From: Meghimatium bilineatum
Taxonomy: Eukaryota > Mollusca > Gastropoda > Stylommatophora > Philomycidae
Length of the DNA: 64,000 bases
Direction of reading: 5' to 3'
NCBI GenBank assembly: GCA_034231615.1
Contig: CM067317.1
Location: forward strand, 18,141,673 to 18,205,672
Position numbers and translations under genes: made by a program. The notes under the pieces were generated by a model, which worked only from the letters and a program-made list of their open reading frames with translations, did no database searches and was not told where the DNA came from. Of the stretch, positions 35,864 to 55,923 are shown in pieces (position 1 is the stretch's first letter; each line of letters begins with the position of its first letter).

Positions 35864-36339
35864 AAAATTGCCCATCTGGGACTGTGAGATGGCATCTTTC
35901 CAGAAGACTGTTCCTTGTGTGACACTGTGATATTTCATATCTAATTTAATTACTAAATATCATACTATTTCTAGACATGCTTGTCTCCAGAAAAAATAAA
36001 TCATAAAGAAAACAACTACATAAATAATGAAATGAGTTTATAATGAGCATACAACTTTTTCATCTTTCTTTTATTCACTTGCAGATCCCTGAGGAGCATA
36101 CGTCTTTAGCATACAATATCAATAGTAAATGGCTGTTATAAAAGTAAGAATTAATGTATAAATATATAATACTACTGTTATAACAGTGAAGGTGAATGTA
36201 AAGAAGAATATAAAGTAAAATAACATATAAAGCTCCGCTGTGCACGATTCCGAGTCGTATATTGATATGCGTTATTAGACCAGTCTATTTTATTGATCAC
36301 AGTATGCCTAGAGATAATGTGTGATAAAATATAGAAACA

Positions 36340-36400
36340 ATATTAATTAACGTTTCGGTCTAACACTTTCGTCAGAAACGATAACGAAACAATAATAAAA
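36340..36400 (-). other. CTGACGA...GAAAC motif, possible hammerhead-like core
   Basis: The minus strand reads TTTCTGACGAAAGTGTTAGA followed by CCGAAACGTTAATT. The spacing of CTGANGA and GAAA resembles the conserved core of hammerhead ribozymes found in some retroelements, but the central stem would be only two pairs long and I cannot draw stems I and III. Copy 2 contains this block twice. Confidence 0.2.
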
Positions 36401-37150
36401 TATGACTGAACAATTGTTAACAAGTATATTAAAATGAATATATAGCAAAATTGTGAACATCCCAAGAAAACATATATGATTGATCACGTTAACGTAGAAC
36501 AGACATTTATCCTTACAATGTTACTTTAGTGGTATGTATGTTTATTTCAAATGCCCAACGTTTGTTAGCATGCATCTCTCGTTTTGTATTTGTTTTTCCA
36601 ACACGTCTCCGTTCCTGCACTAAAGTGATACGTTTCTTATTTATATTATTAACTCATTCAAGAGTATATCATATGCTCCACTAACTGTGTATGCCCTTCA
36701 TATTTTTTGTATGTATAACAAGTTGCCGTTTATCTTTTATATGATCTGACAAAGGTGTAACGTGATTATTTATTTGAATATAACAATATAAAAGCATCGA
36801 GGATTTATTATTAAAGAATTTTTTTTTAATAATGATGCAGCAAACTCAATTTGAACCAAGTAGGATCAGATGGAACCGTCTCGCATCTTGAGCCAACAAA
36901 TGTTCCGTCTTCTACCACACGGCATCCCTAACATAAGACGTGAATTCAATAAATTCTTTGAACGTGTATATTTTCAATTCACTATTGTTATTTATTTGAA
37001 ATGATGACTCCAAAAATGTACTTTCTGTTCATATAATTTGTTCTATCGTGTACTGGTATGTGCAGAATTGAGACTCGGTCAAACGATCATATGTTATCTT
37101 ATATAATAAACACTACCCACAACGCATCAAATTCGATTTAGAAAATATTA

Positions 37151-37380
37151 TTTGATATTTAGGACTAACACATACGCTACACTGCTCCTACTTGATATGT
37201 AGAACCAACATAGTCTCTGAACTGCTCCTACTTGATATCTATAACAAATATATACGCTAAACTGCTCCTACTTGATATCTATAACAAATATATACGCTAA
37301 ACTGCTCCTACTTGATATCTATAACAAATATATACGCTAAACTGCTCCTACTTGATATGTATAACCAACAGATACGCTAA
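37151..37380. repeat. 40-bp tandem repeat, five full units (copy 1)
   Basis: ACTGCTCCTACTTGATAT begins at 37181, 37221, 37261, 37301 and 37341, with a diverged partial unit before. The equivalent array in copy 2 has three full units. Confidence 0.9.
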
Positions 37381-37727
37381 ATTACCTCTAAGATAGTACT
37401 TGTACAATTAGTAAAACATTACTCGTCTTGTTATTGGCAACGTAGCGTATTGCTAACTTTCACGTATGCTCACTTCCTTCTGTTTTGTGTAAAGTCGACA
37501 ATTTATTATTCCGATGTTCTTTCCATTTCATTATATCACGCAATCAAGCAGCAATTTTCTTGGTTTTTCTCTTACAACTCTTGTCTTTAAATTTTCATGT
37601 TGTTACTTTGTCTCAATCATCATCTCTATTCATGATGTATCTAAATTAAAAATGTTAACTTTCTCCTTCTGAAGTAAGTGAGAAGTTCAAGTTTATATGG
37701 GACTTCTTTCAAGATATATTTAAGCAA

Positions 37728-37985
37728 AAGCTCGGTAGCCTGAGCTTGCTTTCTATCACTGGGTTACAGTGTCCTAGGTTCGAAATCACAAACGGACACA
37801 CAAACTATCCGGGTTGTGATTTCTCGCTTGACACGACCACTCCTCCAGTAGACTCAGCTTTAAATGAGTATCTGACGCATGAGTTAGGGAAAGTAAAGAC
37901 GGCAAGGAAGGGAACTGACCACCCCACCTAATAGTTGCTGCGGCTTAGTACATGAAAAGTCATCTTCATCCCCAACGGCAGGTTG
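37728..37985 (+). mobile_element. tRNA-derived SINE-like element (copy 1)
   Basis: Starts with an A-box-like GCTCGGTAGCCTGAG, followed at tRNA-like distance by the B box AGGTTCGAAATC (37776-37787). A less AT-rich body follows (GGTTGTGATTTCTCGCTTGA, AAATGAGTATCTGACGCATG). This layout is that of a tRNA-headed SINE. The internal plus frame is not a gene. Family not identified. Confidence 0.6.
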
Positions 37986-52738: not shown

Positions 52739-53363
52739 ATGGACAGTCCCAGTTTATCGGGGAACAGCTGTTTGTGGCAGTTGAAGAGATTAAAAACAGG
52801 TCTAAACAAGATTGCATATGATATGTTCAAAACAATTCCTTTAAGCAACAAGACAGTTCAAAGACGTATTGATGAAATGTGTCTGTTATTGAAAGCATAT
52901 TGTATAATTATCTTTAAGTGAAGAATTTCTCAATTCAACTGAACGAGTCAAAGTCGCATGGTAATGAAGAACTATTATTGGAATATGTTCGTTTCGTTGT
53001 GGACAAAGAAAGCCATACATAATTACTCTTTATGGAACTGTATCAAAAGATACTAAAGGCAAACAAATATTCAGTGTTTTGAAAGATTATTTTAATGGAA
53101 AAAGCAAAACCATTATCAAATATAATATCGGCAGCAGCAAATTGTGCATGTTTGGACGCTATCGCAGCTCTTTAAGTCATTTAAAACAAAATGTACCCGA
53201 AGAGTTTGAAATTTACTGAGGCATTTATGGATAACATTTAGTAGCTAAACAGAAGTACGTTGACTCTCGAAAGGCTTATGTTTGTCAAATTATTTTCATT
53301 TTTTGAGAAGTTTCGAGTTTTTGGACGCTAAAGATCCCACTTTGTTATTTAAGGATTATTGAG
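52739..53363 (+). pseudogene. hAT (ZBED5-like) transposase remnant (copy 2)
   Basis: Same motif series as 43136-43760, including IPLSNKTVQRRIDEM and the Asn in QLNES, with the same stops. Confidence 0.8.
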
Positions 53364-54404
53364 GATAACTTGCATGGTAAGCGTATGAATTTTTATCATT
53401 GCAGCTTTTCTTGACAGATTTAATCTCATGAAGCAAACAATTGATCGGTGCTAATTGTCCCATACCACAGTTCTTTCAAAATGGGATCATTAGCATTCAA
53501 AAACTTTAAAATGGTCTCAAAAAGTAAAAATAATCTTGTTAATTATATAAATTTTTAGATCCAGCGCACTTCACTGTGGAGGAGAACTGGATGAAAGTCA
53601 TCGTCATTTTCTGGACTGACAAACGCCCGGGAAATGACGTGTTGATCTACATTTAAAATTGAAATTTTCTTTCCACATACTTTAAATCTAGATGTGGGAA
53701 TGTTTTAATTATGGAAAAACCACAGTGGATATTAATGGATACGGTGACCATGGAGAATCAGATGGCACATAACAGGAAGAGCTAATCGTAATTAGAGCTT
53801 AATTAGAAATTAAGGTACAGTTCAGAAACGGGTATCACCAGTTGTGGCTTCCAATATATATATATCAGTTGCTTATCCTGCATATTGGGCATAGTTGATT
53901 ATCTCAAGAAAGTTTTTGATAGCTTTTCAACACGTGGAAAGAAAATGTATTGCCTCTTTCAACCTTCTTTAGATAAACAATACATCGAATGCAAACCACT
54001 GGGCGGAAAGATTTAAGATTATGTCTCACTAGTGTGAAGAAAATTTGAACAATTGCTATCAGACCATCAGATTCATTCCTCTCAGTATTAGTATTATTTG
54101 TGTATTAAATTTGTATAAGAATTTTACTAGGTTCTGATTTGTTTCGTTCCAAATTCAAACATGTGCTTGCATTGTGTGTCCTCTCAAAAACATTATAAAT
54201 AAAAATTGTACATGATCTATTATTTTTTACAATTCTCCACTGAAGAAAAAAAACACATATTACAGTTAGAATAAAGGTTGCAGCTGTCAAAAACACATTT
54301 TAAGTGAACATGTTTAGATAAATACAATTTTGAATATGCAGAGGTATACTGAAGACAAAAAATCGGCAAGGCGTTAATATGACAAAAACGTTTTGGAACC
54401 ACTG

Positions 54405-54412
54405 CTCTAAAC
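54405..54412. repeat. Target site duplication of hAT element, right (copy 2)
   Basis: CTCTAAAC after the terminus CCACTG. Confidence 0.85.
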
Positions 54413-55118
54413 GAACTCTATGCACAAGGTCAAGGTCGTTTAAGAAAACTATGATAAACATCATGGAGAACACAAGAGAAAGACAAAAGACCAGCAGCAA
54501 AAGGAAATGAAGTAGAATTGCCTATAACACGAGCCAAGCTGTGTCAACCTCAATCAGGTGAATTACGACTCAGTTTTGGAGCCTGACACAAAATCATATA
54601 CTGAGATAAGTGACCTATACTTGTATGTGTTGTGTTATCTTACTTATTCCTATCTCCCTCCGCATCGTTCACTTGTTCATCCACCGGTTCCTGTTATGTT
54701 CCTATCTTATCTTGCTTGGCACTTCCTATTCTGTAATCTCATTTTAATCGGGTCAATCTCCTATTTCTACCAGCGACACACAATATGCACTTTTCTATAC
54801 AAGATGTTACATCTGTCTGTTGTCTTTCGTCCTGAGGAATATCTTTTAGTCAAAATGTCGCCTGTCATAATAGCTCGTTGCTAGTACTTTTTTCATTTAT
54901 AAATATTGGTTGCTCTTTCATATATTTCCATTAAAAGATTATTTGCCCTATATTGCCCCAGTGCAGGCATTACCAAGATCGGATTGTTTCCCGTCACTGT
55001 TGTTTTATGTCGATTTTAAGAACTGTCTCCTTCGGTAGCAAACAGCTTATACATACTGTTGTGGAGTTTTGATATATTATATTATGTACATACATAGTTT
55101 ATACCACATATAAGTAAT

Positions 55119-55209
55119 ATATATATATATATATATATATGTGTGTGTGTGTGTTTGTGTGTAAATATATATATATATATATATATATATATATATATAT
55201 ATATATATA
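55119..55209. repeat. (TA)n-(TG)n-(TA)n compound microsatellite (copy 2)
   Basis: Shorter version of 45515-45680, with (TG)n at about 55140-55153 and the second TA tract ~45 bp. Confidence 0.95.
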
Positions 55210-55923
55210 ATGTAATGTATATATATCAGTGGGGTAGAGTAAATGTTTACATTTTGTCGAGTGACATTTTGTATTACGTATGTGTAGATCTCCCCCCTCC
55301 CACCAGTAACACGCAGTTACGGCTATACATATAATGTTAACATTAACAAAAATCAATTTCATTATATAATCTTGTAATGCAATTCCAGGTGTCTGTTCTT
55401 CTTTTATGCGAAAATGTGTCAGTACACTCTCAATAAATATTGAATCTGGTGAAAAGGTACTTACTTATTTCTTCTTAATCGACAAAGAATTAACAAATGG
55501 CATACGATTGTGGAATTTGTGAGATATTATTTATTGCAATTAATATCACACACACATACACACACATAATAGCATATGCACAGATGAAATATTGTAACGT
55601 AAAGAATTTCTGTTTACAGTTCGGAGAAATACATATCACTATAAACTATTTTTAAGCGTATGATTACTCTGAAGCCGGTATCTGAAATTAAATCGCTATT
55701 CAAAGATCAACAGGTGTTCTGCATACGATGAAATGTGCATCTCTGAATTGAAACACTCGCAGTAGTATTTTGGCTTCAAGGAAAGGTAACTTTAAAATAA
55801 TTAATCTGTGATTATCCGTTTGTAGGGATAATAGTATGTATGTCTTCTTTATTATCGCTTTATATACCTGTATGCCTTTCACCGTCATTTGTTATTACTA
55901 TTTTGTTTTAAATCGGCGAAATC

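Follow-up and report, generated by a model that had tools for sequence, protein, structure and literature searches.

The direct repeat of about 10 kb that surrounds a 100-N assembly gap on a scaffold of Meghimatium bilineatum is very probably a single genomic locus that was assembled twice, i.e. a false duplication in one form or another and not a real one. The analysed window comprises 64,000 nt of the forward strand of contig CM067317.1 (assembly GCA_034231615.1, positions 18,141,673 to 18,205,672), and all coordinates below are those of the window. The copies, the gap, and the contig end between them are arranged as follows.

35864–46395 (+): copy 1 of the repeated segment, forming the right end of the left contig (alignment and 31-mer sharing).
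46396–46400 (+): final five bases of the left contig, either a contig-end error or the start of haplotype-specific sequence.
46401–46500 (no strand): 100-N assembly gap, the sole non-ACGT run in the window.
46501–55923 (+): copy 2 of the repeated segment, forming the left end of the right contig (alignment and 31-mer sharing).

The two copies are direct repeats on one scaffold, with the gap directly between them. When the sequences left and right of the gap were aligned, 35864–38954 paired with 46501–49551 and 39503–46395 with 49074–55923, the remainder being a 38-bp tandem array. At an offset of +9571, 1900 of the 1901 bases at 40400–42300 were identical; the runner-up same-strand offset in the window gave 598 of 1901, and chance similarity was rejected on this comparison. 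Among the 31-mers of copy 1, 9,108 of 10,502 were present in copy 2 and 1,394 were absent; for copy 2, 8,491 of 9,393 were present in copy 1 and 902 were absent (all as counted in the assembled sequence). Outside the segment, 51 of the 35,833 31-mers of the left outer flank recurred in it, every one from an AT-dinucleotide run, and none of the 8,047 of the right outer flank did so. The edges of the repeat are therefore set by the contig ends, exactly for copy 2 and within five bases for copy 1, because unmatched flanks lie solely on the outer sides. All of this agrees with the initial annotation, which had placed a direct duplication of ~10 kb around the gap, with copy 2 starting at the first base after it, copy 1 ending five bases short of it, unique sequence only to the left of copy 1 and to the right of copy 2, and a constant offset of 9571 from ~40.4 to 42.3 kb.

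A layout of this kind would result if the left contig traverses the locus and ends at 46400, and the right contig, continuing rightward, has its first base within that locus, at 46501. The two contigs most likely follow different haplotypes, the two versions being, on this reading, alleles of a single-copy locus. The overlap of ~10 kb would have been left unmerged since the versions are set apart by array lengths (differing by up to 1 kb) and by two patches dense in SNPs, and the scaffolder would have set the contigs side by side with a gap of 100 N. A real tandem duplication of ~10 kb, the junction of which stayed unassembled with each contig ending at a fork at the repeat edge, is very unlikely. 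In an overlap graph, a repeat that exceeds the read length would be expected to fork at its edges, which could place a gap exactly there, and mosaic divergence between the copies could come from gene conversion. However, the copies differ enough to be assembled from separate read sets, which should also let reads cross the junction, and the left contig does not run on into the start of the unit at its end: of its last five bases, one agrees with the five at the start of copy 2 (and none with the five that follow copy 2). In addition, no base is in common at either putative breakpoint (A vs C and A vs T).

Global alignment of the copies gave 45 substitutions and eight internal length differences, plus the five terminal bases. 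The length differences reside mainly in the following tandem arrays.

37172–37381 (+): 40-bp array in copy 1; its counterpart at 47830–47979 in copy 2 is shorter by two units (80 bp).
38515–39980 (+): 38-bp array in copy 1, exceeding that of copy 2 by 27 units (1026 bp).
42474–43128 (+): 16-bp array of copy 1, located inside a hAT-like element and two units shorter than that of copy 2.
45513–45698 (no strand): AT dinucleotide array of copy 1, exceeding its counterpart at 55117–55226 in copy 2 by 76 bp.
46970–47061 (+): 41-bp tandem pair in copy 2, where one unit (41 bp) is missing from copy 1.
49068–49551 (+): short form of the 38-bp array in copy 2, as reported by TRF.
52045–52731 (+): 16-bp array in copy 2, as reported by TRF.

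All five length differences of more than 2 bp correspond to whole tandem units (one of 41 bp, two of 40 bp, 27 of 38 bp, two of 16 bp, and 38 of 2 bp), and the three others amount to 2, 1, and 1 bp. The order of units within the arrays is otherwise retained: the final eight full units of the 38-bp array occur in identical order in both copies, and so do the variant units of the 16-bp array, apart from two additional common units in copy 2. Should the copies be alleles, the change in length between the haplotypes would thus consist almost wholly of whole tandem units. The 38-bp array of 1.5 kb includes a run of ten identical units (380 bp), which suggests that the assembly was based on long reads; were this so, the overlap of ~10 kb would be of the order of one read. 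Minisatellites are abundant throughout the window, for example at 20454–21371, 22950–23463, 25192–25653, and 4064–4763 (units of 22, 21, 56, and 51 bp, respectively), and TRF returned 63 partly overlapping rows over the 64 kb.

Substitutions were counted outside the 40-, 38-, 16-bp, and AT arrays, so that seven of the 45, lying inside these four, were dropped and 38 remained in 8,000 bases of copy 1. Their distribution is highly uneven. The left 2,441 non-array bases hold 34 and the right 5,559 hold four (Fisher p = 4.6e-14 for a split picked post hoc), the divergence shifting sharply across the 38-bp array so that the right 6.4 kb is nearly identical. The longest SNP-free run, 1,634 bases, was matched in 66 of 10,000 uniform draws. 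Two patches hold 30 of the 34 substitutions of the left part, their limits having been set after the SNPs had been seen: 14 in the 319 bp at 35864–36182, corresponding in copy 2 to the very start of the right contig, and 16 in the 531 bp at 37984–38514, corresponding to ~2.1–2.5 kb inside it. The initial annotation was therefore correct in that the copies differ in array lengths, but its rare SNPs need a small correction: they are not uniformly rare, being dense in the two left patches and nearly absent on the right.

The type of the differences favors two haplotypes. Consensus errors of long reads are expected chiefly as small indels. Outside the arrays, only three of these (of 2, 1, and 1 bp, one lying in a G-run) accompany the 38 substitutions, a ratio more suggestive of sequence variation than of consensus error in long reads. 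The differences of whole units in the arrays speak for two haplotypes likewise, and a false duplication with different haplotypes throughout is, in our judgment, moderately likely. Both contig ends could instead come from one haplotype and overlap by about one read length at a branch of the graph, the differences then being consensus errors and mis-sized arrays. The near identity of the right 6.4 kb and the fact that one SNP patch falls where the right contig begins are in line with such an origin, but the second patch lies well inside that contig, the differences of 41, 80, and 1026 bp occur in the same left part, and small indels are too few for errors; we regard this form of false duplication as unlikely.

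A third form, in which the contigs represent different haplotypes over the left 3–4 kb and a single haplotype (or two that are identical by descent) along the right 6.4 kb, would account for the sharp change in divergence across the 38-bp array, and the near-identical right part leaves room for it. On the other hand, two arrays of the right side, the 16-bp one and the AT one, still vary in length between the copies, and sharp shifts in allelic divergence are normal in recombining populations. This combined origin is accordingly tenable as a minority reading, less probable than two haplotypes throughout. A combined heterotype/homotype example is included in the legend of Extended Data Fig. 6c of PMC8081667. 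The statement of the initial annotation that the copies differ as two haplotypes would stands as the better reading, with the reservation that the right 6.4 kb could be the same haplotype twice. The uneven divergence, with its 34 substitutions on the left and four on the right, is also one of the observations that go against the favored explanation of a locus assembled twice, and gene conversion between true paralogues could be an alternative source of it. The corresponding scenario, a recent real tandem duplication of ~10 kb in which gene conversion homogenised the right two thirds, with the left third and the arrays diverging, is highly improbable.

The base changes themselves have unusual features, a further point against a locus assembled twice. 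The 38 non-array substitutions comprise nine transitions and 29 transversions (p = 0.0017 against one half and 0.23 against one third). Six adjacent pairs were found, where 0.45 were expected from uniform draws within the left part and none of 5,000 draws reached six; this number is inflated by patchiness and by the alignment of small shifts, yet is odd for ordinary polymorphism. Transversion-rich and often adjacent substitutions were noted between 35864–38558 in copy 1 and 46501–49155 in copy 2. For comparison of the mutation spectrum, 13 arrays were tabulated, nine of them outside the segment. These nine contain 48 transitions among 138 distinct column variants; when three with indels were dropped, five arrays with variants were used (the sixth indel-free array having none) and gave 24 transitions in 63, a fraction that differs from 9 in 38 with p = 0.19. 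Since arrays elsewhere are equally devoid of a transition bias, the transition-poor substitutions were not taken as errors. They may be a feature of the mutation spectrum of this genome. The spectrum of base changes fails to separate consensus error from true variation.

The right part of both copies contains a hAT-like element.

41999–44800 (no strand): hAT-like element of copy 1, with CTCTAAAC on either side at 41991–41998 and 44801–44808.
51570–54404 (no strand): hAT-like element in copy 2, flanked by CTCTAAAC at 51562–51569 and 54405–54412.

The element is bracketed in both copies by the 8-bp target-site duplication CTCTAAAC, and its terminal inverted repeats (TIRs), CAGTGTTTCCAA and CAGTGGTTCCAA, are alike at 11 of 12 positions. 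These ends were located by script; the 25 longest of the 263 pairs from the inverted-repeat tool included only the AT array. In 300 Markov-1 simulations, TIR pairs of at least 9/12 arose at 0.49 per simulation, and none had 11/12 together with an 8-bp repeat. Two of the ORF pieces presumably resemble hAT transposases. Pfam scans were run with 10 and then 8 protein queries, the share of the segment being eight pieces in the former and one further piece and a joined query in the latter; these nine ORFs, from a list of 40, and the joined query gave no match to a hAT transposase domain. Searched against PDB sequences, one ORF piece had a single match at E = 0.11, which is uninformative. Hence, of the hAT element named in the initial annotation, the anatomy (TIRs and 8-bp target-site duplication) was confirmed and the transposase was not, as judged by Pfam on the scanned ORF pieces. 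Lacking a hAT domain in those pieces, the element is probably decayed or non-autonomous. Because its site and the flanking 8-mer are identical in both copies, it is a single insertion seen twice. Together with the geometry and the array-length differences, the shared insertion supports the false duplication from overlapping contig ends that had been put forward at the outset.

As to the superfamily, excerpts of PMC3942097 give hAT elements an 8-bp target-site duplication, TIRs of 10–25 bp, and a length of 2.5–5 kb, and the present element (8-bp duplication, short TIRs, 2.8 kb) is within these values. Its target site, CTCTAAAC, is consistent with the pattern nTnnnnAn stated for Hermes in the corresponding part of PMC2803484. 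It differs from the superfamily in having TIRs alike at 11/12, an internal 16-bp array, and no transposase match in the scanned ORF pieces.

Elsewhere in the window, remains of retroelements were observed in the flanks at 62947–63438 (+) and 16350–17247 (−), where Pfam detected a reverse transcriptase piece (RVT_1, E = 1.7e-16) and two RNase H pieces (E = 3e-06 and 1e-05); we take these remains to be of the non-LTR type. All other Pfam matches were under the curated cut-offs, among them a weak match to DUF7499 (E = 0.0013) of a 62-aa ORF piece at 40338–40526 (+). Rfam gave no match in the window at gathering scores.

The duplication at 35864–55923 has no wider significance. As an artefact, it would cause everything in the segment, such as the hAT-like element and its tandem arrays, to be counted double and would make the scaffold ~9.5 to 10.6 kb too long at this place.

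Several known types of false duplication are comparable to this case. A figure legend of PMC8081667 describes both the heterotype of 'flanking contigs' and the homotype of overlapping ends, and an excerpt of PMC9516828 names gaps between duplicated pairs as one primary characteristic of false duplications. The homotype overlap, as portrayed in these portions of the two papers, shares with the present case an overlap at a contig boundary, which may be of the order of one long read, and a gap between the copies, whereas the substitutions and array differences found here in the left part resemble real variants rather than read errors. The program purge_dups, which according to the section concerned of PMC7203741 was made to remove haplotigs and heterozygous overlaps and uses read depth, addresses a similar situation, namely a retained overlap of adjacent contig ends, here judged from the assembled sequence. 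The heterotype of 'flanking contigs' from the Vertebrate Genomes Project, as depicted in the legend of PMC8081667, is told apart by half read depth and haplotype-specific k-mers, and it differs from our case, known from the assembled sequence, in that part of the present overlap is nearly identical. It resembles our case in the tandem copies on one scaffold with a gap between them, in one contig carrying the left flank and the other the right, and in the allele-like differences between the copies. The assembly artefact is thus of an already known kind.
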